41,785 nucleotides of DNA, taken from the NCBI GenBank assembly GCA_026398255.1, contig JAPLTG010000007.1:1-41785 (forward strand). The letters run 5' to 3'. The position numbers and the translations under genes were made by a program. Positions 19,410 through 35,079 of the stretch are shown here, piece after piece (positions within the stretch are counted from its first letter, which is position 1; each line of letters begins with the position of its first letter). The DNA is from Verrucomicrobiota bacterium. GTDB lineage: Bacteria > Verrucomicrobiota > Verrucomicrobiia > Chthoniobacterales > Terrimicrobiaceae. A model generated the notes under the pieces. That model did no database searches, was not told the DNA's origin, and saw nothing but the letters and a program-made list of their open reading frames with translations.

Positions 19410-19709
19410 TCACGCCTTTCTCAAATGGCGACGAATCCAGGAGGGACTTCTCCGGCAATCAACCACTGACCTGATCCAAACCGTATCGTCCTCAATCGTG
19501 TAGTAAATCGCGACCGGAAAACGCTTCGATAGAGCGCGGCGGAATCCTCTGACGGCGTTGCGATGGATGCCGCCGAATACTTTGAGGCTTTCAATATCAG
19601 AGAAAAGATTGGTCAGAAAAAAATCCCCCAACCCTTTTTCTTTATCCTCATAGAAATGAAAGCCGCCGATGAGATCCTCTTTCGCAAGATCGAGAATCTG
19701 GAGCTTCAT
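19410..19709 (-). CDS. RelE/ParE-family toxin
   Basis: This 99-residue protein resembles RelE/ParE toxins: a helix-hairpin start (LQILDLAKEDLIGGFHFYEDKE), GLGDFFLTNLFSDIESL, then a beta-sheet core with RGFRRALSKRFPVAIYYTI and VWIRSVVDCRRSPSWI. The C-terminal VxDCRRxP motif is typical. Members either cut mRNA on the ribosome or poison gyrase, and the sequence does not decide which. The ATG at 19709 overlaps the antitoxin stop (ATGA), so the pair is translationally coupled. The frame continues upstream to 19748, but that part lies within the antitoxin gene. Confidence 0.87.
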   Translation of the reverse strand: MKLQILDLAKEDLIGGFHFYEDKEKGLGDFFLTNLFSDIESLKVFGGIHRNAVRGFRRALSKRFPVAIYYTIEDDTVWIRSVVDCRRSPSWIRRHLRKA

Positions 19710-19924
19710 TTCACGGCTTGTTTGATCTGCTCCTTCGCTTCTTCCCAATCAATAAACCGAGCCTTTCCATCCGCTATCAATTGCTCCCGCTCATTGAGAA
19801 TGTCTTTGTGCCACTGAGGAATCTCTAGATTTTCTTCAACGCTGGAAATGTCATCCCAGATGGCCTCCATTGCGATCAGCTTTTCTTGGAGGGTCAGTTG
19901 ATGAATCTGCTCGATTACGCTCAT
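19706..19924 (-). CDS. Antitoxin, addiction module component (TIGR02574-like)
   Basis: This is a 72-residue acidic protein. The pattern IHQLTLQEKLIAMEAIWDDI, then IPQWHKDILNEREQLIADGK and a final DWEEAKEQIKQ, fits the family of putative addiction-module components regularly encoded before RelE/ParE toxins. It would bind and neutralise the toxin through its C-terminal helix and may repress its own operon. It lies directly upstream of the toxin gene with a four-base overlap. Both genes sit between two direct repeats behind the coxB stop codon. Confidence 0.87.
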   Translation of the reverse strand: MSVIEQIHQLTLQEKLIAMEAIWDDISSVEENLEIPQWHKDILNEREQLIADGKARFIDWEEAKEQIKQAVK

Positions 19925-20994: not shown

Positions 20995-21711
20995 TCAGGC
21001 GGCTGGAGGCGCTGCGGGAGCGGGATTAGCCGGGGCGGCAGGGGCGGCGGCTCCGCCAGCGGAGATTGTTTCGGCCGGTATGGCTTTCAGGTCTTTTTGG
21101 GTCCAAGGTTCTTTGCGGTCGGTGGATGCAGCGCGGATTTTGGCGACGAATTCCTCGGTGATCGGAGGAGCGCTGTTGCCCCACTCGCTGCGGATGTAAG
21201 TGAGAATGCCGGCGATTTCGCTGTCTTTCAACTGCGCCCACGGCGGCATGGCGTTGTTGTAGCTCTGGCCTTTGACTTGGACCGGCCCTTGCATGCCGGC
21301 GAGCAGGATTTTTACGAGGTGGTTGTCACCCACCCAGTCACCACCGACGACCCATTCGCTTGCGACGAGAGGCGGGAATTGGCCAGCGACACCCATTCCG
21401 CTGCCTTGGTGGCACACGGCGCAGTTTTGGGTGAAGAGGCGCTTGCCGATGACTTTGGGATCGGGCGGAGCGGCAGGGCCAGCAGCGGCACCGCTGATTT
21501 CGGGATTATAGACATCCGCTTTGAAGCCACCGCTGTTGCTGGCGAGGTGAAATCCACCCCAGAAAACGAGGATTCCTGCAAAAATGACAAGCCAAAAGGG
21601 AATGGGGGAGGATTTCTCGGTGGGCTCGGCGGCTTCACGCAGAACGGGAGCGGAAACCTCAGTTGCGGGGGTATCGCTCGGCTTGTGCGGGTCGTTCGAA
21701 GGCGTGTTCAC
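20995..21711 (-). CDS. Membrane-anchored monohaem cytochrome c (CcoP-like)
   Basis: This is a 238-residue protein with one transmembrane helix near 38-57 and one class I cytochrome c domain (about 85-180). The haem site is NCAVCHQGSGMG, with the Met ligand probably in YNNAMPPWAQL. Classical CcoP has two haem-binding domains; only one is present. The C-terminal ~40 residues are a low-complexity Ala/Pro tail. It starts six bases after the CcoO-like gene, and coxB follows after eight bases. Position and topology suggest it relays electrons between the CcoO-like cytochrome and CuA. Confidence 0.9.
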   Translation of the reverse strand: MNTPSNDPHKPSDTPATEVSAPVLREAAEPTEKSSPIPFWLVIFAGILVFWGGFHLASNSGGFKADVYNPEISGAAAGPAAPPDPKVIGKRLFTQNCAVCHQGSGMGVAGQFPPLVASEWVVGGDWVGDNHLVKILLAGMQGPVQVKGQSYNNAMPPWAQLKDSEIAGILTYIRSEWGNSAPPITEEFVAKIRAASTDRKEPWTQKDLKAIPAETISAGGAAAPAAPANPAPAAPPAA

Positions 21712-21717
21712 TGTGTT

Positions 21718-22350
21718 TTACTTGGCGGTTGCGACCGGGGATTCCGGGAGCGGGTAGCTTTGGTTCAAGGAAAGAAGGTAGGCGGCAAGGGCTTTGGCCT
21801 TCTCGGTGGGAACAACTTCGTAACCGGGCTTTGGAGCACGGGGTCCAGTGAGGCCGATAACGGCTTCATTTGAGGGTTGGCCTTGGATTTTCACGACATG
21901 GTAGAGGAAGCAATACGATGGCATGTTGGACCACGGATTCACGGAACGGGGTTCGTAGAGGTGACGGTGAATGGCGTTGATGTCTTCACCGGCTCGGGCG
22001 CCGTAGTTCGAAAGGTCTTGTCCGACGCGAAGGGTGCCGGGGAGGGCGGTTTTTTCGCGGAGATAGTCGCGGGCGACGGTCTGGCGTTTCCCGAGTTCTT
22101 TGTCGATATCCGTCGTGAGCGGGGAAAAACGAACTTGCTGAGAGTGGCATTCCACACAACCATTTGCAGCATAGACTTTTTGTCCAGCCACAGCGAGTCC
22201 CGAAACGGTGGGAGGAAGGACGCCACCGGTGGCCTCATCGGGAACGGGCTGAAGGTTGCCGAGGTTTTTGAGCGGGTAATTTACGAGTCCGAGCCAAGCG
22301 GAGCCGAAGATCAAAAAGATGCCAGTGAAAAGGGATGGGAGTTTGTTCAT
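21718..22350 (-). CDS. ccoO: CcoO/FixO-like membrane monohaem cytochrome c
   Basis: This 210-residue protein has an N-terminal TM anchor (LPSLFTGIFLIFGSAWLGLV) and one cytochrome c domain. The haem motif is NGCVECHSQQVR, a CcoO hallmark, and SNMPSYCFLY carries the likely Met ligand. Other CcoO features include GQKVYAANGC, ARDYLRE and VGQDLSNYG. In cbb3 oxidases CcoO feeds electrons to the low-spin haem of CcoN. Here the neighbouring CcoN-like subunit lacks ligands for that haem, so the acceptor is unclear. Its start overlaps the CcoN-like stop by four bases, which implies coupled translation and equal amounts. Confidence 0.91.
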   Translation of the reverse strand: MNKLPSLFTGIFLIFGSAWLGLVNYPLKNLGNLQPVPDEATGGVLPPTVSGLAVAGQKVYAANGCVECHSQQVRFSPLTTDIDKELGKRQTVARDYLREKTALPGTLRVGQDLSNYGARAGEDINAIHRHLYEPRSVNPWSNMPSYCFLYHVVKIQGQPSNEAVIGLTGPRAPKPGYEVVPTEKAKALAAYLLSLNQSYPLPESPVATAK

Positions 22351-23804
22351 ACCGCAACGGGCTCCTGAGATTTTTCCTCACGCTCTGCCAACATGGCGGG
22401 CGCTTGGTTTTTGCGAGTGTCAAGCAGGATGCCGATGAAGTGCAAGGCGAAGCTCACTGCGGATCCCAAAATCAGGACGCTTCCCAACATAGCTTGGAAG
22501 CGAAAGGGCCAGGCGAACTCCATGGAGCTTCGGAAGGTGACGATGGTCTGATTCAAGGCGGCTCCTTGGATGAGACCTCCGAGGAGAAGTCCCGAAACCA
22601 CCAAACCGAATCCTGTCGCAGCCAGCCAGAAATGAAGTGAAATGAATGGGGCGCAGGGCCATTCCTTGCCAGTGAGGCGAGGCACGATGTAGTAGATGGC
22701 GCCGAAGGCGGTCATGGCAAAGAAGCCGAAGTGTCCGAGTTGATAGAGCGCCCGGTTTGTGTCGGAAAATTGTGTCATCGAATTCACCAATGGCAGGGAA
22801 TTGATGGCCGAGAGCACCCAGTAGGTCACCAGTGAGCCAATGCCGACGACCACAAAGCGGAGGGCTGGGCTCCACGCGACCGGGGCGTAGTGACCTTGGA
22901 AGGTGAGGTGGAGATTCACGCCGATCGCCAGGGCTGGAACCAAGAGCATCACACTGGCGGCGACGCCGGCGCTGGTGATCCAAGCAGGGACTGGGCCACC
23001 AATAATTTGCGCGCCACCGGTCCATGCTCCGAAGAGGAGGAGGGTCCAAAAACCCAGGAGGCTGAGGTTATTGCTGGCAATGGGAAATCCGGTGCTCTTC
23101 GGAATGATGTAAAACGCGGCGGCGACTCCGACGGGAACGAGCCAGAGATTCATGAATCCGCTGGCAAACCAGAGCGCGATGGGTGTTTGGGCTGGGGCGG
23201 CGACGGGGTTCCATACGAGGAGGGCATTCGCGGTTCCGAATAGCCAAGGAAAGGCCAGGATCGCTGTGAAAACAAACCACGCGGAGACGAAGAGAGCTCC
23301 GGATTTTCTTTCGTTGAAAGTAAATAGAACCCAAATCGCGATCAAAGCGTAGGAGACGAAAAGAATCGGTGTAGCGAATGCAGGCAAGGCGAGAAGCGGG
23401 AACGATGTGCTATTTCCAGCAATGATCGAGCAGGCTCCGACGAGAATGCCGAGGTTCCACACAATCCCGGCACTAATCAACATACGATGGTGCCTGAGGG
23501 GCACCTTGCAGAGACGAGCCGTAAGCCAAATCGCGATACCAATCGCGGCGGGAGTAGCAAAACCGTAGGCTAGAACCGTGGTGGCTGCCTGAACCACACG
23601 GCCATACGTGAGGAAGCTCAGTCCATCCAAAAACCCTGGGAAGACGAGTTGAATCGATCCCACGACTTCCAGCAGGGAGCCGAAGACCAGCCAGAATGCG
23701 GCGGAACCGAAGAAGAGCAGAACCGCGCCGCTGGTCGAGGCGTCTATCTGAGCGCGCTCAGGGGCGGTCAAGTCATCCGGCTGATTGGACAAGTCGTTGC
23801 TCAT
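22347..23804 (-). CDS. CcoN-like oxidase subunit I lacking all haem and copper ligands
   Basis: This 485-residue protein has about 12 TM helices. It follows cbb3 subunit I from SFLTYGRVV through GVAAAFYIIPK, FWTLLLFGAWTGG, PALRFVVVG, AFGAIYYIVPRLTG and LHFWLAATG. The six histidines that bind both haems and CuB in CcoN are absent at aligned positions. The helix II PLHT becomes VVQA (about 70-73), the YGHN His becomes Ser215, the adjacent HH pair becomes Gly264-Ala265, and the GHVH motif becomes ALYQ (352-355). Only His358 is near, three residues off. The reading frame is intact and hydrophobicity is kept, so it is not a pseudogene. It cannot be a working oxygen reductase by the known mechanism. 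It is flanked by CcoO-like and one-TM genes with four-base overlaps. Confidence 0.9.
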   Translation of the reverse strand: MSNDLSNQPDDLTAPERAQIDASTSGAVLLFFGSAAFWLVFGSLLEVVGSIQLVFPGFLDGLSFLTYGRVVQAATTVLAYGFATPAAIGIAIWLTARLCKVPLRHHRMLISAGIVWNLGILVGACSIIAGNSTSFPLLALPAFATPILFVSYALIAIWVLFTFNERKSGALFVSAWFVFTAILAFPWLFGTANALLVWNPVAAPAQTPIALWFASGFMNLWLVPVGVAAAFYIIPKSTGFPIASNNLSLLGFWTLLLFGAWTGGAQIIGGPVPAWITSAGVAASVMLLVPALAIGVNLHLTFQGHYAPVAWSPALRFVVVGIGSLVTYWVLSAINSLPLVNSMTQFSDTNRALYQLGHFGFFAMTAFGAIYYIVPRLTGKEWPCAPFISLHFWLAATGFGLVVSGLLLGGLIQGAALNQTIVTFRSSMEFAWPFRFQAMLGSVLILGSAVSFALHFIGILLDTRKNQAPAMLAEREEKSQEPVAV

Positions 23805-24301
23805 TGTTGGGTTTTCGATTTTTTGGTTTTCCCGGCTTTGGCTTCTGTTTTATCAACCGGAGCGGCTAAGGCATTGGCGCCAGCAGCGGCGGGCTCTCCC
23901 TCCGGGAGGGGATCGGCGGCATCCGTATCGGCTGGTGTCGCAAGACGCGTGGGCGGCACGGGTTGGCCGGTATTATCCACTACAGGGTAGGCCGGGGCGG
24001 GTTTTGTCGAGTTCAGCTTGGCCAAGACGAGGGTCATGGCTTGATTGATGGGGATTTGGACGCTTCCTTTTGCCTGATCCACCCAAGCGTAGCTATTGAG
24101 TTTTTTCTCGTTTTCGGCTTGGAGGTCGGCGAGGTTTTTCACACGCTCCGCATCGCGAGCTGGATCTTCGGGATCGGTGGTCGCCGAGTATCCGCCACGG
24201 AAGAGATTGGTCGCCAGCAAGAACAGGGCGATGAGACCTATGCCGAGGATGAAAAACCAGGCCCCGGATTTTTTCTTTTCGTTATGGGAAGTGGTATCCA
24301 T
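23801..24301 (-). CDS. One-TM protein of the ACIII/oxidase operon, unknown
   Basis: This 166-residue protein has one transmembrane helix near 13-33, so most of it is periplasmic. The segment LNSYAWVDQAKGSVQIPINQAMTL resembles a short conserved motif (GWVDxxxGxxxIPIxxAM) that I know from small proteins in other oxidase operons, especially beside alternative complex III. The C-terminus is Ala/Pro/Lys rich. It overlaps actF by one base and the CcoN-like gene by four. A role in assembly or in linking ACIII to the oxidase-like part is a reasonable inference only. Confidence 0.8.
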   Translation of the reverse strand: MDTTSHNEKKKSGAWFFILGIGLIALFLLATNLFRGGYSATTDPEDPARDAERVKNLADLQAENEKKLNSYAWVDQAKGSVQIPINQAMTLVLAKLNSTKPAPAYPVVDNTGQPVPPTRLATPADTDAADPLPEGEPAAAGANALAAPVDKTEAKAGKTKKSKTQQ

Positions 24302-25500
24302 CAGTTCTTCAAGGCAATCGATTTTTTAAGGCGCGGGTCGCGAAGTGGCCAAAGCGGAGCGTCTCCGAGGCGTTTCAGGAAAACGGCGGCGAGGGTGCTC
24401 CCGATGGCGATCAGGCACGCGATATCGAGCCAGCTCACGACCACGCCGGCTTTGTGCAAGGCGGGGAGCACGATGACATAGACATCGAGGAGGTGCATGG
24501 AAAGAATCCACAGAGCCATTCCGCAGAGGAAAGCCGGGCTTTTCTTGCCGAAATTAAACAACAAGAGCAGGAAGGGCACGAAGAAGTGTCCGACGACGAG
24601 GGCGGTGCTGAGGATTTGCCAAGTCTCGGTATTGCGGCGCAGGAAGTAGACAGTCTCTTCTGGAATGTTCGCATACCAGATGAGCATGTATTGGCTGAAT
24701 CCGATGTAGGCCCAGAAGATCGTGAAGGCCAGCATGAGCTTGCCCATGATGTGGTAATGCTCGAGCGAAACGATATTTTGGAGATATCCGGCATTCCGCA
24801 GGGCGGTGATGATGAGGACCAGCACGCAGAGGCTGCTGAGGGCGGTTCCGGCGAAAATATAGACGCCCCACATGGTCGAGAACCAGTGGTAGTCGAGGCC
24901 CATGAGCCAATCCACGGCGGCGAAGGTCAGACAAACTGCGAAAAGCGGCAGGCTGGCGAATGTGATCTTGCGGTTCAACAAGGTGTAACGAGCGGAGCCG
25001 CAGGTGTCTTGGTAGATCGAGTTCGCGCGGAGCCATGTCGCGGCGATGCCGAAGAAAAGGAAATAGAAGGCCGCACGGATCCAGAAGAATTCCTTGGTGA
25101 GGTAGGGCCACTTCTCATCGAGGAGGATGTCTTGGCCGGGGAGTTTGGTCATCCAATACCACAGCTTCGGAGCCACAAAGATCAGTGGGATGAAGAGCAC
25201 ACCCATTATGATCAAGAGGCTGGCCATATTTTCTGTCTGGCGACGGACGACTACGCTCCACTCCGCATCGACGGCGTGGTGGACAAGCGTCCAGAAAAGC
25301 CCACCCATGCAGATCGTGAGGAAGAAGGTGAACGCGAAGAGGTAGGAGAAGGCGAATTGCTTGGTGTCGCTGAAGGCGCCAAAACCCACGGCGGCAAACG
25401 CGACAATGGCCAGTGCGACGAGGCCGAGGAAACGACCGCCGACATGCTTGTAATCAAACATGTGGCTGCCGGGTTGGGATGGTTCGTGGCTGCTGCTCAT
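24301..25500 (-). CDS. actF: Alternative complex III subunit ActF (quinone-binding membrane subunit)
   Basis: This 399-residue integral membrane protein has about ten TM helices and is of the ActF (NrfD-like, second quinol subunit) type. Characteristic parts are the first-helix region with FSYLFAFTFFLTICMGGLFW followed by HHAVDAEWSVVVRRQ, then LDEKWPYLTKEFFWIR and SQYMLIWYANIPEET. In solved ACIII structures ActC and ActF are the paired NrfD-like subunits. The gene overlaps actE by four bases and the next gene by one. Confidence 0.92.
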   Translation of the reverse strand: MSSSHEPSQPGSHMFDYKHVGGRFLGLVALAIVAFAAVGFGAFSDTKQFAFSYLFAFTFFLTICMGGLFWTLVHHAVDAEWSVVVRRQTENMASLLIIMGVLFIPLIFVAPKLWYWMTKLPGQDILLDEKWPYLTKEFFWIRAAFYFLFFGIAATWLRANSIYQDTCGSARYTLLNRKITFASLPLFAVCLTFAAVDWLMGLDYHWFSTMWGVYIFAGTALSSLCVLVLIITALRNAGYLQNIVSLEHYHIMGKLMLAFTIFWAYIGFSQYMLIWYANIPEETVYFLRRNTETWQILSTALVVGHFFVPFLLLLFNFGKKSPAFLCGMALWILSMHLLDVYVIVLPALHKAGVVVSWLDIACLIAIGSTLAAVFLKRLGDAPLWPLRDPRLKKSIALKN

Positions 25501-26195
25501 TGTTTCTGCGCTTCGAGTTGGGCCCGTTCAGCGGGCGGAACATCATTGATCGCGGCACCGCCTTGCGAGAGTTGGAGGGCGCGGATATAGGCAACGATCG
25601 CCCAGCGGTCCTGCACTTGGATGCGGTCGCCGTAGCCCATCATGGTGTTTTTTCCATGAGTGATGGTGTTGAAGATTTCACCGTCCGCCATGTCGCGGAT
25701 GCGGGGTTGGTGGAGATTGGCGATGGCGACAAGGCCGTATTTGCCGGCGATTCCATTTCCAGCTCCAGTGGCTCCGTGGCAGACTTGGCAGGAGATGGCG
25801 TAGCGATCTTGGCCGCGAGCGATGAACTCCGGGGTGACTTCGTTCACTGGGATGCCGGTGCCCCACTGGTTGTCGAATCGGCCGGTATCGAAATAGGACA
25901 CGCCGTTCGAGAATTTCACCTGTTTGTAGGGGCTGGGTGACTCGCCGGTCGAGCCATCAACATCCTTGTGCATTGGCATCGCGTAGCCGAGCGGGACAGT
26001 TCCCGCGATCGGTTGGCGGTTGCCGCGTCCATCGGCAAAGAACTCGCTGGGCGATTGGGCTTTGACCTTTGGCTGGTCATCCATGTCCGGGAAAAGCTCG
26101 ATGGGTGGTTTCTGGAATTTTTGTCCACGGAAGCCGGCGACTGTCACCACCAGGACGACCACCAGAGCGAAAATGGAGAAGAAGTATTTGAGCAT
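25497..26195 (-). CDS. actE: Alternative complex III subunit ActE (monohaem cytochrome c)
   Basis: This is a 232-residue protein with an N-terminal membrane anchor or signal (YFFSIFALVVVLVVTVAGF) and one cytochrome c domain. The haem site is ISCQVCHGATGAGNG, and a methionine-rich region NTMMGYGD supplies the likely axial ligand. GYAMPMHKD and YFDTGRFDNQWG are ActE-type segments. In ACIII, ActE sits in the periplasm next to ActA and passes electrons onwards. It starts six bases after actD and overlaps actF by four bases. Confidence 0.93.
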   Translation of the reverse strand: MLKYFFSIFALVVVLVVTVAGFRGQKFQKPPIELFPDMDDQPKVKAQSPSEFFADGRGNRQPIAGTVPLGYAMPMHKDVDGSTGESPSPYKQVKFSNGVSYFDTGRFDNQWGTGIPVNEVTPEFIARGQDRYAISCQVCHGATGAGNGIAGKYGLVAIANLHQPRIRDMADGEIFNTITHGKNTMMGYGDRIQVQDRWAIVAYIRALQLSQGGAAINDVPPAERAQLEAQKQ

Positions 26196-26201
26196 GCCCG
26201 A

Positions 26202-26762
26202 TTAGTCTCCGTGGATGGTGGTGATGTTGGTTCCGCCGAGGGATTCGAGGAAATCCTGCACCGAGCGGGTGGAGAATTTGGGGTCTTCGGACTCAATGGC
26301 GACGAAGAATTTGTCCTCGGTGACTTTTTTGAAGCGGTCCCAGTTGAAAAGTTGGTGGTTGAGGCGCGGCAAGCCGTTCATGATCAACATTCCGAAGACT
26401 GCCGTGAAGGCCGAGATAAGAATGGTTAATTCAAACATGATCGGGAAAAAAGCCGGGACGGTGTAGAGGTTGGTCGGCTTGCCGGCGACGATGAGAGGGT
26501 AGAGGAACGAGGAGGTTCCGAACTCCATCGTAACTGCCGTGAGGAACCCGGTGAGACCTCCAAAGAAAACTAATTTACCGAGGATCGAGCGCTTGAGGCC
26601 CATGGCTTCGTCCATTCCGTGGATCGGGAACGGGGAAAAGACATCCCATTTGGAAAATCCGGCATCGCGGATTTTTTCGGCGGCGTGGTAGAGATCGCGG
26701 GCGCACTGAAACTCAGCGGCGACTCCGTAAACAGGTGCTGTGGGATTTCCAACGGCTTCCAT
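26202..26762 (-). CDS. actD: Alternative complex III subunit ActD (DUF3341)
   Basis: This 186-residue protein begins with a small alpha/beta domain (VYGVAAEFQCARDLYHAAEK, then WDVFSPFPIHGMDEAMG), which is the DUF3341 signature. Two TM helices follow (about 60-82 and 100-122, the latter near FPIMFELTILISAF). The C-terminal part has EDKFFVAIESEDPKFS. The soluble domain faces the cytoplasm in known structures, and its job is structural. It lies one base after actC and six before actE. Confidence 0.93.
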   Translation of the reverse strand: MEAVGNPTAPVYGVAAEFQCARDLYHAAEKIRDAGFSKWDVFSPFPIHGMDEAMGLKRSILGKLVFFGGLTGFLTAVTMEFGTSSFLYPLIVAGKPTNLYTVPAFFPIMFELTILISAFTAVFGMLIMNGLPRLNHQLFNWDRFKKVTEDKFFVAIESEDPKFSTRSVQDFLESLGGTNITTIHGD

Positions 26763-26763
26763 A

Positions 26764-28176
26764 TTAGTGATTCGCCTCCCCGTGGTGTGGGTCCGCTTCG
26801 GGCAGGACGGCTTTGACTTCGAACATACAAATCATTGGAAGGAATCGAATAAAGAGCAGGAAGAGTGTTCCAAACAATCCAAAGGTGCCGATGAAAGTGC
26901 AAATATCGACCCAGGTCGGGTGGAACATTCCCCAAGCCGATGGGGTGAAATCCCGGGCGAGCGTGGTGGCGATGATGACGAAGCGCTCGAACCACATGCC
27001 GGCATTCGGGAATTGGACGATCACCCAGACCCAAACGAGATGGGTGCGGAAGTATTTGAACCAGAATATCTGAGGTGCGACGACATTGCAGAACATCATC
27101 GACCAGTAGGCCCACCAGTAGGGACCGAAGGCGCGATACCAGAAGGCCGCGCGCTCGTAAGGGTTCGCGCTATACCAAGCGACGAACAGCTCCATCAAGT
27201 AGGCGTAGCCGACGATGGATCCCGTGAGCAGGATGATTTTGCACATCTTGTTCACATGGTCCGTTGTCACGAGGTCATGAAGCGGCTTGTAGATCGCGCA
27301 AGCCGGAATCATGATGGTGAGCACCATCGCGAAACCACCGAAGATGGCGCCGGCGACGAAGTAGGGCGGGAAAATCGTGGTGTGCCAACCCGGAACGACC
27401 GATGTCGCGAAGTCGAAGGACACGACCGAGTGCACCGAGAGCACGAGCGGGGTCGAGAGACCAGCGAGGATCAGGTAGGCCATCTCGTAGTGGCGCCATT
27501 GGCGGTTGCCGCCACGCCAGCCGAGGGCGAGGACGCCGTAGATGAATTTGCGGATTTTCGTGGTGCAACGATCGCGCAGGGTGGCGAGGTCGGGGATCAG
27601 ACCGGTATACCAGAAGAGGACCGACACAGTGAAGTAGGTCGAGACCGCGAAAACATCCCACAGGAGCGGCGAGCGGAAGTTTTGCCAGATCGCATTCGCG
27701 TTGGGAACCGGGGCCAGCCACCAGGCCATCCAGACGCGACCGACATGCAGGGCGGGATAAATGCCGGCACAGACGACGGCGAAGAGGGTCATCGCCTCGG
27801 CAGCACGGTTGATCGAGGTGCGCCACTTCTGGCGGGTCAGGAAAAGAATCGCCGAAATGAGCGTGCCGGCATGTCCGATACCGATCCAGAACACGAAGTT
27901 CGTGATGTCCCATGCCCAGCCGATGGGGTGGTTGTTACCCCAAACGCCGACGCCAGTCGAGATGAGGTAACCCAATAGCGCCAAGCACATGAGTGTGAGC
28001 GGCACAGTGATTGCCATCGAGACATACCACCAAGTCGGCGTCTTGCCCTCGACGATGGAGCTGATGTAATCGCTGATCCAACCCATCGTGCGGTTGTTAA
28101 GCACAAGCGGTTTGCGGACGAGTTGTTTTTCGTCTTCCGTAAGGTGCTCGGGATGTTCGGCGGTGGCGTTGGACAT
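26764..28176 (-). CDS. actC: Alternative complex III subunit ActC (NrfD-like, quinol-binding)
   Basis: This 470-residue membrane protein of the NrfD/PsrC family has about ten TM helices. After a short cytoplasmic stretch ([20 protein letters not shown]) the helices include [20 protein letters not shown] with an Asp and His near the quinol site. [20 protein letters not shown] carries a second conserved His/Asp pair. The family oxidises menaquinol at the periplasmic side. It starts ten bases after actB. Confidence 0.95.
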
Positions 28177-28186
28177 TTCTTAAACC

Positions 28187-31100
28187 TTAGTGGGCGGCCG
28201 GAGCGGCGTGGGCGTCGCCATGGGGCGGTTGGGCGTTGTGGGAATCATGCCCTTCGCCATGGGCGCCGTGGTGACCGGCCCCGTTGGCCATGCCGACTTG
28301 ATCGGCGCCGGGCATTTGAGGATTCGGGTTGCGAATGCGAGCGAGGTAGGAAACGCGGGGCGCAACATTCAAATACTTGAACATCACATACGCGCGGTCG
28401 TCTTTCCGGAGGCGGCTGACCGAGCTGTTCGGGTCGGCGACATTGCCGAAGACAATCGAGTCATTTGGGCAAGACTGCTGGCAAGCCACCTTGAAATTGG
28501 CGATCGGTGTTTCGCTGGCTGGGGTCGGGCCGGCTTCGACGAGGCGCGAGATTTTGGCTTCCTCGATGCGCTGGATGCAGAAAGTGCATTTTTCCATGAC
28601 GCCGCGCATGCGCACGGTGACATTCGGGTTTTTCGCCATCTTGAGGCTGTCGGCCATGCCTTTCTTGGCGAGCGGACCCCAGTAGAGTTCGTCGATAGGA
28701 CGCTGATTGTAGTCGAAATAGTTGAAGCGGCGGACTTTCCAAGGGCAGTTGTTCGCGCAATAGCGGGTGCCGATGCAGCGATTGTAGGCCATCAGGTTTA
28801 GGCCGTCCTCGCTATGGACCGTGGCATTGACCGGGCAAACCGTTTCGCAAGGAGCGTTCTCACAATGCTGGCACATGACGGCCTGTGTGAGCATTTCGGG
28901 ATCTTCGGCTTCGCCGGCAAAATAACGATCGAGGCGAATCCAGGCCATGTCGCGGTTTTTGCGGACTTGGTCCTTGCCGACGACCGGCACATTGTTCTCG
29001 GCCTGGCAGGCGACGACGCAGGCATTGCAACCGGTGCAGGTATTGAGATCCACCGTCATGCCCCACTGCTCCTTCGAGGTCAACTCGGGGTGGGTGTAGA
29101 GAGAAATATTCGGCGGGATGTGGCTATCCATGCCCATCGTTTGGGCAAAGGTATGATCTTTTTCGTAGCGCTCGATGGTGCCTTCGCGCACGAGGTCGCG
29201 GCCTTCCATGCTCTTGTGCTCCTGCGTTTGGGCGAGAGGATAATCGCGGTCGGTGACTTTGCAGGTGACGCCGCCGACGGTGCGCATGCAGTTCGAGCGG
29301 CGGAGCGGGTAGGCATTGAAACCCACACCATCCATCAACGCGGAGACTTCCTTGCGTCCATAGCCCAAGGCGATGGAAAGCGAGTTGTCGGCGTGGCCTG
29401 GAGCGACGATCGCCGCGGCTTCGATGGTGGTCGTGCCATCGGAAATTTCCACAATGTCGGCGACCAAGTCGTAGTTGACGTCGTTGCCCAATTTCTCGGA
29501 GATGTCTCCGAGAATATTGAAATTATTTGCCTTGATGCCGAGTTTTAGAGCGGTGGCGGGGCTGACGAGGATCGCGTTGTCCCAAGTGACCTTGGTGACA
29601 AAATCCGGAGTCTCGAGGAGCCAGGAATTGTTCGCGTAGCGGCCATCATCCACGCTCGGGCTTTGCAGGAAGACCAACTCCAAGCCATCCGACTTGGTGG
29701 TCGCGGACTTCGCGAGGTTGGCGGCGGCGGTGGCGTTGAAAGAGGCTTGGACTGGCGCGAAGGCCGTATTGGGTTGAAATCCGTCGCGCAGGAAGGCGTT
29801 CCAAGCGGCAGGGTCGGTGGATTTGGCAACTTGCGTGAATGTTGCTTGAACCAACGCTGGGCCGACCGGAGCGGGTGCGCCGTTGAGCGCATTCAAAATC
29901 TCGAGTTCCGAACGACCGCCCCACAGCGGGAGGATCATCGGTTGCACCGAAGTGTAGGTGCCGTCAAAAGTGCGAACATCGCCCCAGGCTTCGAGGAAAT
30001 GGGCGGCCGGAACATGCCAGCGGCAGACTTTGGCGGTTTCGTCCTCGAACAATCCGAGATGGACGGTATCGGTGACCTTCTCGAGAAGTTTGGCGAAACC
30101 CAGTTCGGCCGGAGCGCTGTGGGCGGGGTTGCCGCCGAGAATGAAGAGGCTTTTGACCTTGCCGGCGTCAATCGCCTTCGCGAGGTCGGCGATGCTGGCA
30201 GCGGCAGGAGCGTCGGTTTTGACCGCTGTGATGGTGGCGCCGATGTTGCCGAGGGCGCTGTTGATCGCGTTGACCAAAACCTGCACCGGGGCGGGCGTGA
30301 GCGGGCCGGCGACGACAATCGAGCGACCGCCATTCTTGGCGAGGTCGGCCGCGCATTCTTCGACCCACTTGGGATCAAAGGATGCTTGCGAAGCGGGAAC
30401 GGCGTTGGCGACGGCGGCCAAGTTGGCGTTGCCACTGGCTTTGGCGAGGACCAATCCGAGTTGACGGGCAAATTCGCCCATGTCGGAGACCTTCAAGCGC
30501 AGGCGGTGGTCAGCCATGCCGCCGGTGACCGTGTAGTGGTTCTCGACGACATAAAGGCGGTTCATCGGAGCGCCTTTTTGGTCGGGATTGCGGCGAGCGG
30601 CAAAGCCCTGCGCGTAACCAATGCCGGTTTCGATCGGATTCAGGAAATCGCTATCAATCGCCAAAATAATATCGGCGCGGCTGAAATTCGGAACGAGGCG
30701 AACATTCGGGCCAAACGAAGCCGCGGCGGCTGCTTCGGCGGGAGTTGCAGCGAGGGGATCATATTCAGCCCAAAGGAGATCTGGGAATTTAGCCTGCAAG
30801 TCCGCGCGGAGGCGGTTGCGAGTGGGCGAACTGACCGGCTCGGCCAAAATGGCGAGGCCCTGACCATTGCCGGAAGCCACGGATTTTACGAAGGCGTCAA
30901 ACGCGTCAGCGCTCGAGGCTTGGCCTTTTTCAGTGATTTCTTTCGAGCGGTGTGGATCGTAGAGATTCAGGATTTCCGCCTGAGCGAAGGAATCCGTTCC
31001 GCCATTCGAAAAAGGATGGAGCGGGTTGCCTTCAAGCTTGGTCGGGCGTCCGTCGCTGGTCGTGGCGATCAATGGCACGGCACCGTAACGGGCCGGCATC

Positions 31101-31399
31101 GAGGTCGCGTAATAAAGAAACTTGCCGGGAATCGTGTATTCCACGCCTTTGGTGAAAGGAACGAGGAACGCATCGGGGCGGCGGCAACCGGTCAGGCCCA
31201 CTCCCGCCAGCGCGATCGAGGCGCCCATGAGTTTGATGAAATCGCGCTTCGAAAGACCGCTATCTTCGTAAAGATCGGCTCCGCGAGGAAATTCCTGCTG
31301 GAGATGTTTCTCGAACTGCGGGTCATTCTCCAACTCACGCAGGCTACGCCAAATGCGTGGGTTTTTCTCCGGTTTCGGGTGGTGGAAATTTCTCTTCAT
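28187..31399 (-). CDS. actB: Alternative complex III subunit ActB (iron-sulfur, molybdopterin-enzyme-like)
   Basis: This is a 1070-residue protein. A Tat-type segment SKRDFIKLMGASIALAG ends in a lipobox-like LTGC, which fits periplasmic export and lipid anchoring. The long N-terminal part resembles molybdopterin oxidoreductases without the cofactor. The C-terminal ferredoxin part holds the four cluster motifs: CTGCNACVVAC, CQHCENAPCETVCP, CIGTRYCANNCP and CTFCIQR with CQQSCP. Electrons pass from the quinol site over these clusters to the ActA haems. The frame runs 55 codons further upstream to 31564, but homology begins at the ATG at 31399, which overlaps the actA stop (ATGA). The C-terminal tail is His/Gly/Ala rich. 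Confidence 0.96.
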   Translation of the reverse strand: MKRNFHHPKPEKNPRIWRSLRELENDPQFEKHLQQEFPRGADLYEDSGLSKRDFIKLMGASIALAGVGLTGCRRPDAFLVPFTKGVEYTIPGKFLYYATSMPARYGAVPLIATTSDGRPTKLEGNPLHPFSNGGTDSFAQAEILNLYDPHRSKEITEKGQASSADAFDAFVKSVASGNGQGLAILAEPVSSPTRNRLRADLQAKFPDLLWAEYDPLAATPAEAAAAASFGPNVRLVPNFSRADIILAIDSDFLNPIETGIGYAQGFAARRNPDQKGAPMNRLYVVENHYTVTGGMADHRLRLKVSDMGEFARQLGLVLAKASGNANLAAVANAVPASQASFDPKWVEECAADLAKNGGRSIVVAGPLTPAPVQVLVNAINSALGNIGATITAVKTDAPAAASIADLAKAIDAGKVKSLFILGGNPAHSAPAELGFAKLLEKVTDTVHLGLFEDETAKVCRWHVPAAHFLEAWGDVRTFDGTYTSVQPMILPLWGGRSELEILNALNGAPAPVGPALVQATFTQVAKSTDPAAWNAFLRDGFQPNTAFAPVQASFNATAAANLAKSATTKSDGLELVFLQSPSVDDGRYANNSWLLETPDFVTKVTWDNAILVSPATALKLGIKANNFNILGDISEKLGNDVNYDLVADIVEISDGTTTIEAAAIVAPGHADNSLSIALGYGRKEVSALMDGVGFNAYPLRRSNCMRTVGGVTCKVTDRDYPLAQTQEHKSMEGRDLVREGTIERYEKDHTFAQTMGMDSHIPPNISLYTHPELTSKEQWGMTVDLNTCTGCNACVVACQAENNVPVVGKDQVRKNRDMAWIRLDRYFAGEAEDPEMLTQAVMCQHCENAPCETVCPVNATVHSEDGLNLMAYNRCIGTRYCANNCPWKVRRFNYFDYNQRPIDELYWGPLAKKGMADSLKMAKNPNVTVRMRGVMEKCTFCIQRIEEAKISRLVEAGPTPASETPIANFKVACQQSCPNDSIVFGNVADPNSSVSRLRKDDRAYVMFKYLNVAPRVSYLARIRNPNPQMPGADQVGMANGAGHHGAHGEGHDSHNAQPPHGDAHAAPAAH

Positions 31400-32049
31400 C
31401 GATGGCAACCTCCGCAAGTGACGGGCGGGTTCACTTCCCACTCCTCTTTGAACTTCATGCCGATCTCGCGCTGGGTCTCTTGGCCGGTCGGTTTCCAGGC
31501 CATGTTGTAGACTTCCGAGGGCGGGCGGAGATGGTTTTCCGGGGCGCGGTGGCAATCCAAGCACCAGCTCATGCTTTGCGGCTCGTGCTGGAAGACGACC
31601 TTCATTTCGTTGATCGCGCCGTGGCAGCTGTAGCAGCTCACGCCGCGGTTCACATGCACCGCGTGGTTGAAATAAGTGTAGTCGGGAACCTTGTGGATGC
31701 GGACCCAGTTCACCGGCTGGCCGGTTTTCCAGCTCTCACGCACGGCGGCGAGTTTAGGGCTGTCGGCCTTGATTTGCGTGTGGCAGGCCATGCAGGTCTG
31801 GGTGGTCGGCACATTCGAGTGCGAGGCGACCTCGACGAAGCTATGGCAATACCGGCAGTCCATTCCGAGCTGCTGCACATGGATCACATGCGAGAAAGGC
31901 ACCGGCTGGGTGGGCTCGTAGCCGACGCGGGTGTATTTCGGGGTGAAGTAATACCAGAGACCCCCGACGATAAAGGTCACGATCGCCCCCACGCAAATCA
32001 CCAGCTTCAGCGGAAGCCAGTTGGTCCATTTTGGAAAAAAGTTCGCCAT
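31396..32049 (-). CDS. actA: Alternative complex III subunit ActA (pentahaem cytochrome c)
   Basis: This 217-residue protein has one N-terminal TM helix (LVICVGAIVTFIVGGLWYYF) and five CxxCH haem sites: CRYCH, CMACH, CYSCH, CLDCH and CGGCH. Five haems are standard for ActA. It is the first gene of the 11-gene operon that runs to coxB. Upstream (32050-32159) lies the divergent start of the DUF192 gene. I could not find a convincing promoter or Shine-Dalgarno there. Confidence 0.96.
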   Translation of the reverse strand: MANFFPKWTNWLPLKLVICVGAIVTFIVGGLWYYFTPKYTRVGYEPTQPVPFSHVIHVQQLGMDCRYCHSFVEVASHSNVPTTQTCMACHTQIKADSPKLAAVRESWKTGQPVNWVRIHKVPDYTYFNHAVHVNRGVSCYSCHGAINEMKVVFQHEPQSMSWCLDCHRAPENHLRPPSEVYNMAWKPTGQETQREIGMKFKEEWEVNPPVTCGGCHR

Positions 32050-32727: not shown

Positions 32728-35079
32728 TCAAATTCCGTTGAGGGAAACATCGCGCGGCGTCTGGGGGTCTCGAATCCAGACCTCCACGCGCCGGTTTTTC
32801 CAGCGTCCCGCCGGTTCTAGGTTGGAAGCCACGGGCAAAGAGGCTCCATAGCCCTTGACATGGCGGACCTTCAATCCGCGTTTTTCGAGTTCGGCTGCGA
32901 CCGCCGAGGCGCTTTGAACCGAGGTTGCAAGGTCGGCAGCGTCATCTCCCGTGCTCTCATGAAATCCCGCCAGCACGAGTTCGCGCCCCCTGTTTTCCGG
33001 GAGGGCCATCAATTCGACCAACCGCCCCAAATCCGTGGCGCCCTTGGAATCGAGCGCCCCCGTTTCTCGGTTGAAACGCACATTCATGCTCACGCGCTCG
33101 GCACTCTCGAGCAGGTTTTGATATTCCGCCGGGGCGTTGCGGGGAACGAGACCGGGCTGCACAACGGGCGTTTGCTTTACGAATCCCTCGCGGCTCACGA
33201 TCTCCTGACCCTCGGGGCTCGTGGCGAAATCCAGAAATTTCCTGATCCAGGGATGTGTGCTTGCGGCCGACGCGTAAAAGTAAAGGCGCCGCGAGAGCGC
33301 GTAATCCTCGGTGGCAACTGTGAAGCGGGATGGAATCAAGGCGGGGGTGCCGTCGTCGCCGATCGCGAGCGCCTTGCAGTCGAGAATATAGGGCAGTGCG
33401 GCAAACCCGATGGCATCTTGATCGCCCGCCACCGCCCGCGAAAGATCCGTGCTGTCTTCGTAGCGGCGCGCCTCCGTAGCAAGCGTCCCGTTGCCCAGAA
33501 CAATGGATTGGAAAAATTCGAATGTGCCGGAGTTGGCATCTCTGGCGTGGAGATGAATCTTTCCGGGTCGGTCGCGCCCGAGCTCGGCCCAGTCCGTGAT
33601 TTTTCCCTCGAATACAGAGGCCACCGCATGCCGGTCGAGCTGGGATAGGGGGTTTGAGGGATGGACGAGAACCGCCAATCCATCCAGCGCGGCGATGATT
33701 TCGCTGGCGGGGGCCCGCATGTCCCCAAGCCCCTTGTTGGCGAGCTCCGCCGCATCCGACTCCCGCACCCGGGAGGAGGACATGCCGAGATCGCAAAGTC
33801 CGTCGCGAAGCCCTGAAAAGGCCGTTCGAGAGCCGTGCGCGTGGATTTCCACAAATTCCCGCCGGCTACTTCTCGCATCCAGAAAATCCACCCGGCGCTC
33901 CACACTCTGCGGCGTGCTCTCGGTTTGAATTTCTTTGTTTCCCCGGTGGGCCAAAAAACCCTCGACCAGCGCGGGAGCGAGCCGGGAGCCGATGGTATTC
34001 GAGCCGTGGATGCGAAACGCAGGCGGCGCGGGTTTTTGAAAAGCCAACCATCCCCAGACGCACAAGGCGACGGCGAGCACGGCTGCGGCTGATGCCCATG
34101 GCCAAAGCGGCCGGCGTCGCACGGGCGGTGCCGGGGGTGACGGCGCATCCATGAAGCTCAAATCGATCCGCCCCGTTCCTGCATCGGATGCGGCGGGCGC
34201 CGCTGGCTCCGGCAATAAGACCCGCGAGGTTTTTTGGAAGTTCGCGGCGAGGGGCTCCAACTGCCACAAAGCCCCGATTGCGTCGGGAGGCCTACCCTCG
34301 GGACGCCTGGAGAGGAGGGTCATGATCCAGTCGCACAAACCCAGCGGCACATCGGGCCGCAAAACAGACAAAGGCGGAGCCTTTCCCTCGAGGTGCCCCT
34401 TCAGAACTTCATTCGCGGTTTTTCCCGAGAACGGCGGCACCCCTGCCAGACAGAAATAAAACACGCACCCCAACGAATAAAGATCGGACCGTCCGTCCAC
34501 GATGCCACCCTCGAGCTGCTCCGGGGAGATCCAATGCACGGTGCCAGCCACGGCAGCCGGGCTTGCATCGCCCTCGGCGGGTTGACCCTGAAGATACTGG
34601 GCGATACCAAAGTCGAGAATCTTCACCTGAAACTGCCCGCTGGGCAAACGCACCAACATAATGTTGGCGGGCTTGAGGTCGCGATGGACAAGCCCGCTGT
34701 GGTGAGCGGCCGCGATTCCCTCGAGGCACTGGCCGGCGATGTCGCAAAAAACCGGAATTTCCAACGGAGAGCGGCGGACGGTCTGCTCGAGCGTCTCCCC
34801 TTGCACAAACTCCATAACCATGTAGGGCGCGTCCTGCTCGGTTCCAATGTCGAAAACCGAGACGATGTTGGGATGTCGGATCGAGGCGAGGCACATCGCC
34901 TCCTGCCAGGCGTCGCGGATATCCTCATCGGGCTTCGTGGCGTGGCTCAGTCGCTTCACGGCCACCGTTCGTTTCAACTGGGTGTCCCAAGCACTCAAAA
35001 CCTCGCCAGCGCCACCCTGCCCGAGCAGGGCTTTGAACTGGTAGCGTGATGGTAGAGGAGCGGGCGAATTGGACTCCAT
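32728..35079 (-). CDS. Ser/Thr kinase - TM - PstS-like binding domain - OmpA domain fusion
   Basis: This 783-residue protein has four parts. Residues ~13-275 form an active-looking Hanks-type kinase: GQGGAGEV loop, VAVKRL lysine, VHRDLKPANIM (catalytic Asp ~134), DFG at 156-158, HWISPEQLEGG. One TM helix lies at ~325-347. Residues ~354-640 resemble PstS-type phosphate-binding proteins (FRIHGSNTIGSRLAPALVEGF, LAVLVHPSNPLSQL, ARDANSGTFEFFQ, AGDQDAIGFAALPYI). Residues ~664-771 are OmpA-like (VRFNRETGALDSKG, LVLAGFHESTGDD, GRWKNRRVEVWI). Topology implies a cytoplasmic kinase controlled by a periplasmic ligand sensor that is also tethered to peptidoglycan. It stands alone between convergent and divergent neighbours. 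Confidence 0.92.
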   Translation of the reverse strand: MESNSPAPLPSRYQFKALLGQGGAGEVLSAWDTQLKRTVAVKRLSHATKPDEDIRDAWQEAMCLASIRHPNIVSVFDIGTEQDAPYMVMEFVQGETLEQTVRRSPLEIPVFCDIAGQCLEGIAAAHHSGLVHRDLKPANIMLVRLPSGQFQVKILDFGIAQYLQGQPAEGDASPAAVAGTVHWISPEQLEGGIVDGRSDLYSLGCVFYFCLAGVPPFSGKTANEVLKGHLEGKAPPLSVLRPDVPLGLCDWIMTLLSRRPEGRPPDAIGALWQLEPLAANFQKTSRVLLPEPAAPAASDAGTGRIDLSFMDAPSPPAPPVRRRPLWPWASAAAVLAVALCVWGWLAFQKPAPPAFRIHGSNTIGSRLAPALVEGFLAHRGNKEIQTESTPQSVERRVDFLDARSSRREFVEIHAHGSRTAFSGLRDGLCDLGMSSSRVRESDAAELANKGLGDMRAPASEIIAALDGLAVLVHPSNPLSQLDRHAVASVFEGKITDWAELGRDRPGKIHLHARDANSGTFEFFQSIVLGNGTLATEARRYEDSTDLSRAVAGDQDAIGFAALPYILDCKALAIGDDGTPALIPSRFTVATEDYALSRRLYFYASAASTHPWIRKFLDFATSPEGQEIVSREGFVKQTPVVQPGLVPRNAPAEYQNLLESAERVSMNVRFNRETGALDSKGATDLGRLVELMALPENRGRELVLAGFHESTGDDAADLATSVQSASAVAAELEKRGLKVRHVKGYGASLPVASNLEPAGRWKNRRVEVWIRDPQTPRDVSLNGI

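Follow-up and report, generated by a model that had tools for sequence, protein, structure and literature searches.

Locus and operon

The window, meaning the whole stretch of DNA that was analysed (41,785 nucleotides), is positions 1–41,785 of contig JAPLTG010000007.1 in the Verrucomicrobiota bacterium assembly GCA_026398255.1 (Terrimicrobiaceae). Its central feature is an operon in the order ActA-ActB-ActC-ActD-ActE-ActF, 166-aa protein, CcoN-like subunit I, CcoO-like protein, cytochrome c and COX2 (Table 1). The six Act genes identify it as an ACIII operon: pentahaem ActA, ActB, ActC of the NrfD family, ActD, the cytochrome ActE and ActF stand in sequence, with ActF recognized by position and similarity. 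From ActC onward the genes are separated by 10 bases or fewer or overlap slightly, and the CcoN-like gene shares four bases with each neighbour. ActB likely starts at the ATG at 31399; the mechanical open reading frame reaches 31564. A canonical CcoP is absent from the operon and a CuA-bearing COX2 is present instead. The 166-aa protein evolves fast and occurs in most ACIII-CcoN operons.

Two observations concern the flanks. Just downstream of COX2, at 19410–19924 (minus), is a small addiction-module antitoxin (PF09720) with an adjacent short open reading frame that may be its partner. At 32728–35079 (minus), a 783-aa protein combines a protein kinase, a phosphate-binding-protein-like domain and an OmpA domain.

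Table 1. Genes of the ACIII operon, with coordinates in the window
Feature	Coordinates	Strand	Basis
COX2 (CuA motif); no second COX2 found in the genome	20153..20986	minus	PF00116, PF02790; genome search
Membrane-anchored monohaem cytochrome c (CAVCH)	20995..21711	minus	PF00034/PF13442
CcoO/FixO-like monohaem cytochrome c (CVECH)	21718..22350	minus	PF02433, E 2e-15
CcoN-like subunit I, 485 aa, predicted 12-TM fold, six haem/CuB His and catalytic Tyr replaced	22347..23804	minus	
166-aa protein, one apparent membrane segment	23801..24301	minus	no Pfam/NCBIfam family; synteny
ActF (ACIII membrane subunit)	24301..25500	minus	no Pfam match; position and cross-operon similarity
ActE, monohaem cytochrome c	25497..26195	minus	PF13442, PF00034
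ActD	26202..26762	minus	PF11821, E 5e-61
ActC (NrfD family)	26764..28176	minus	PF03916, E 2e-16
ActB, molybdopterin-oxidoreductase-like with Fe-S domain	28187..31399	minus	
ActA, pentahaem cytochrome c	31396..32049	minus	translation

Family, fold and ligands of subunit I

The CcoN-like protein matches PF00115 (COX1) over residues 27–442 (E 2e-33), well above the gathering score (116 bits versus 34.8). The solved chains that it matches are CcoN (3mk7_A, E 2.6e-25; 9g83_t, E 7.7e-26). An AlphaFold2 model (pLDDT 88.8, pTM 0.91) predicts the 12-TM CcoN fold and superposes best on 3mk7_A CcoN (TM 0.87/0.90, rmsd 2.2 Å). The protein misses the cut-off of the NCBIfam ccoN model TIGR00780 (121.9 bits versus 583). 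Relatives with intact ligands score 235–256 bits on the same model, so the whole ACIII-linked subfamily lies below this cut-off. The ancestry of the protein is that of a C-type (cbb3-like) oxidase subunit I.

We read the ligand columns in a 130-sequence alignment that includes 3mk7 as numbering reference, taking the ligand roles of its residues from established knowledge of the structure. In the window protein both axial ligands of the low-spin haem b are gone (H60 to A74, H347 to Q355), as are the haem b3 ligand (H345 to L353), all CuB ligands (H207 to S215, H257 to A265, H258 to Q266) and the catalytic tyrosine (Y251 to G259). A preliminary description of this DNA had aligned the protein with cbb3 subunit I over its full length, which the Pfam match, the CcoN chains and the superposition bear out, and had reported all six haem and CuB histidines replaced, which the alignment confirms while adding the tyrosine. 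Two of its motif pairings were offset by one residue: helix II PLHT pairs with QAAT rather than VVQA, and the HH pair with Ala-Gln rather than Gly-Ala.

Assembly error can be rejected, because an independent MAG carries the same losses (locus L034, 84% identical). We call a copy dead if it keeps at most three of the six histidines; the tyrosine is gone in every dead copy. The preliminary description had also considered that ligand histidines might be shifted to equivalent positions. The alignment and the distribution of the remaining histidines lead us to reject this: every copy of the nearest dead clade has H105, H299 and H391, yet so do intact relatives with canonical ligands. H358 is in practice confined to the window and L034, and neither H358 nor H455 is common even to close relatives. 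To judge from the aligned residues, a haem-copper site cannot form in the window protein, nor can haem b bind through the known ligands. Loss of the metals from this subunit is near certain.

Other oxidases of the genome

Besides the CcoN-like protein, the genome to which the window belongs (2.6 Mb, completeness 100) encodes a single PF00115 protein, the A-type COX1 of contig C17. Its neighbours there (locus L033, 7051–12858), named from sequence, are CtaA, CtaB, COX3, SCO and a DUF420-like protein. The aa3 oxidase genes are therefore split, with COX1 and COX3 in a C17 run that has no COX2 and the sole COX2 in the ACIII operon. The genome search found neither a second COX2 nor a cytochrome bd. 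Since the window COX2 is the only one found, the C17 COX1 very probably pairs with it. With a metal-free subunit I in the window, the oxygen reductase must be the A-type COX1.

Intact, dead and intermediate relatives

A match to the CcoN-like protein was found in 50 of 58 related genomes, the weakest matches being separate cbb3 fusions. The named relatives are Spartobacteria/Chthoniobacterales MAGs of Verrucomicrobiota, and a phylum search recovered homologues from many further families of the class Verrucomicrobiia; nearly all sequences compared are MAGs. The 130 aligned rows include 59 orthologues with all six histidines and the tyrosine, and 66 dead ones. None of the six histidines remains in 24 of the 66, the window copy included (hand count). 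Another 22 have lost the binuclear site but keep both low-spin haem b ligands; the reverse pattern, a binuclear site without the low-spin pair, does not occur in the 130-row alignment.

Udaeobacter-type copies (L062, L064, L070, L071, L076, L086, L090 and others) read HN[SA][QT]RYH, with the b3/CuB site gone and the low-spin ligands kept, and are possibly one-haem membrane cytochromes b derived from an oxidase. In two copies the damage is confined to one or two positions (L015, HRYHHHH; L018, HHCSHHH). In L018 (genome G021) Tyr251 is Cys and one CuB histidine is Ser, and no other haem-copper oxidase was found in that genome; possibly a contig is missing or the loss is recent.

Intact and dead orthologues share one operon slot throughout the class, even inside one genus (L042, L044 and L046 intact versus the window and L034–L041). 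In both states the gene order ActA-F, 166-aa protein, CcoN, CcoO, cytochrome c hardly varies. In relatives, COX2-COX1-CtaA-CtaB-COX3-SCO often follows this cassette as one run. Such aa3 genes also lie downstream of CcoN copies that are intact; having them is thus not enough to explain the loss. In two genomes with an intact copy (G034, G035) neither an A-type COX1 nor a COX2 was found, which makes it probable that the intact form works as an oxidase.

Two candidate correlates of the dead state were rejected. In the order sample, A-type COX1 is present in 32/32 genomes with dead copies versus 13/16 with intact or nearly intact ones (Fisher p 0.03, shared ancestry ignored), a difference too weak, and uncorrected for ancestry, to establish that dead copies occur only where A-type COX1 exists. 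The copper factor CcoG tracks separate CcoNO-fusion oxidases and not the state of this gene.

Selection and conservation

Dead copies are under strong purifying selection. Pairwise dN/dS (Nei-Gojobori), a measure that does not separate relaxed from changed constraint, is 0.11 at dS 0.96 between the window gene and L034, and 0.04–0.20 for other dead pairs versus 0.03–0.09 for unsaturated intact pairs. The preliminary description had held that frame and operon position are preserved, as they are in all 66 dead copies across the class, and that selection seems to keep the protein for some task other than reducing oxygen, which the dN/dS of the dead copies supports. It had named as contrary evidence relatives that keep the ligands beside a relaxed window copy. 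Such relatives exist (the 59 intact orthologues), but the relaxation does not follow, as dead copies still give values of 0.04–0.20.

The cofactor motifs of the operon partners persist. In dead operons CXXCH is retained in CcoO (64/65), cytochrome c (60/60) and ActE (44/45); ActA has its five CXXCH in 27/28 dead and 31/31 intact operons, and the CuA motif of COX2 is kept in 22/23 dead operons. Within dead CcoN the best-conserved region is the loop 267–273 (0.77 versus 0.87 in intact copies), periplasmic by analogy with CcoN. Helices VII and IX, beside the pocket, are among those whose conservation drops most (dead/intact ratios 0.62 and 0.53). The Ser240 equivalent is Ala in 48/66 dead copies and the Tyr317 equivalent is Phe, Leu or Val in 31/44 all-lost copies; we take both positions to be parts of the cbb3 proton channel. 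The window residues there are S248 and L325. An Arg or Lys occupies a CuB position (H257 or H258) in 49/66 dead copies, accounting for 23/39 distinct patterns in many lineages; the window has Ala-Gln and neither basic residue.

Number of losses

The losses are recurrent. A concatenated ActA-F tree, expected to track the organisms better than the CcoN tree, interleaves dead and intact copies and needs eight changes, of which well-supported branches force seven. On the CcoN gene tree four suffice, two of them for the two damaged copies, but this tree is unsafe because many of its branches are long. It unites the dead copies of the window's own family (98/99), and the genus as a single clade is rejected by an AU test (p 0.03). 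For that family the CcoO and cytochrome c trees give two changes. A single origin of the dead form, which the grouping in the CcoN tree might suggest, was rejected in view of the eight changes on the ActA-F tree. In the window's own genus (L034–L046), the trees of CcoN, CcoO and cytochrome c separate dead from intact copies, but those of ActA-F and COX2 mix both. This suggests that the three genes were swapped as a unit or changed in parallel.

Interpretation

Our preferred reading, held with moderate confidence, is that an oxygen reductase subunit has become a metal-free platform on which c-type cytochromes sit between ACIII and the aa3 oxidase. The gene descends from a C-type oxidase subunit I, which in Verrucomicrobiia lies in the ACIII operon alongside CcoO and cytochrome c. 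The window's lineage, and others, would have lost first the oxygen-reducing haem b3/CuB site with the catalytic tyrosine and second, judging from the intermediates, the low-spin haem b, leaving the membrane platform. ACIII (ActA-F) would oxidise menaquinol, and its c-haems would deliver the electrons to the two cytochromes c, CcoO-like and monohaem, which the dead CcoN would hold in place. From these, electrons would reach CuA of COX2 and then A-type COX1; the dead CcoN itself would neither carry electrons nor reduce oxygen.

We infer this path, from the haems of ACIII by way of the cytochromes to CuA, from the parts present. A scaffold role, assembly into an ACIII-aa3 supercomplex and this order of carriers are what the model proposes, and the cytochromes might work without a platform. 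The wider proposition is that conversion in a fixed order (binuclear site, then low-spin haem) into a cofactor-free subunit of an ACIII-aa3 supercomplex happened repeatedly across Verrucomicrobiia, often with Arg or Lys replacing CuB. We give it an even chance.

Dead CcoN could instead have acquired a new function in its own right, for example conducting ions or protons, or binding a quinone or a lipid where the haem used to sit. The recurrent Arg or Lys at the CuB position speaks for this, as do several other dead-specific residues that recur. We nevertheless consider it unlikely: the window copy has no Arg there, the pocket-side helices VII and IX are among those whose conservation falls furthest, and polar residues lining the pocket have turned to Ala, Phe or Leu. 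A quinone or ion role had been offered in the preliminary description and finds no direct support; a scaffold holding cytochromes fits better. A second alternative confines the protein to assembly: without the CcoN fold, CcoO, cytochrome c or COX2 would not be inserted or would not mature, and the protein would have no place in the working complex. Although the gene overlaps both neighbours and CcoN, CcoO and cytochrome c are inherited together, the other genes of the operon encode structural subunits of respiratory complexes and the intact relatives resemble true oxidase subunits; a role in assembly only is also unlikely.

The remaining two explanations have very little probability. A functionless relic, open by chance and decaying, would match the somewhat faster evolution and long branches of dead copies, but is hard to reconcile with 66 of them keeping frame, operon slot and low dN/dS class-wide, or with an order-wide search that met no internal stops. 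Least probable of all is a relocation of ligands to non-homologous positions, with haem b still bound and an oxidase or cytochrome still at work. The invariance of His 105, 299 and 391 in the nearest dead clade invites this idea; the same residues accompany canonical ligands in intact relatives, H358 and H455 are not common even to close relatives, and the catalytic tyrosine is lost as well.

The haem-copper oxidase superfamily is defined by its haem and copper ligands. In the subunits studied here those ligands have disappeared several times, with fold, operon slot and purifying selection retained, which makes the structural and catalytic parts of subunit I separable. The copies with only the low-spin haem pair offer natural intermediates, and the wiring from ACIII to the oxidase becomes a testable question. 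The family is class-wide and has both forms; it is not an isolated oddity. Annotation of such genes as 'cbb3 oxidase' can mislead when read as a sign of low-oxygen respiration in Verrucomicrobia: about half of the sampled copies lack the residues needed for oxygen reduction.

Comparison with known systems

Verrucomicrobia are already known to have ACIII next to a C-type oxidase. In verrucomicrobial methanotrophs and Opitutaceae, ACIII genes adjoin cbb3-type oxidase genes, according to the parts of the sources available to us (PMC8498564, citing Refojo et al., 2010; PMC6688271). The intact relatives described here appear to be of the same kind. Those same parts mention no ligand loss, whereas the window subunit is metal-free (PMC8498564; PMC6688271). 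We found no account of a ligand-free subunit I in the open-access literature; subscription papers such as Refojo et al. (2010) lie outside that scope. Pseudomonas aeruginosa has orphan CcoN proteins, additional versions of subunit I that have specialised functions and support respiration; the available text describes them as oxidase subunits and not as ligand-free (PMC5697931).

The ACIII-aa3 supercomplex of Flavobacterium johnsoniae contains an A-type oxidase and needs no extra cytochrome c (Sun et al., 2018, as reported in the available parts of PMC8361435 and PMC8498564). Its contact with ACIII is through oxidase subunit III, and the same excerpts mention no CcoN-like subunit (PMC8361435; PMC8498564). 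The pairing of ACIII with an A-type oxidase, proposed here from gene content, is common to the two systems. Compared with the cbb3 CcoN of Pseudomonas stutzeri (PDB 3mk7), the window protein has a similar fold over its whole length and its gene likewise adjoins a CcoO-like gene. It differs in having none of the six metal ligands and no equivalent of Tyr251, and in an operon that carries a CuA COX2 and not a canonical CcoP.
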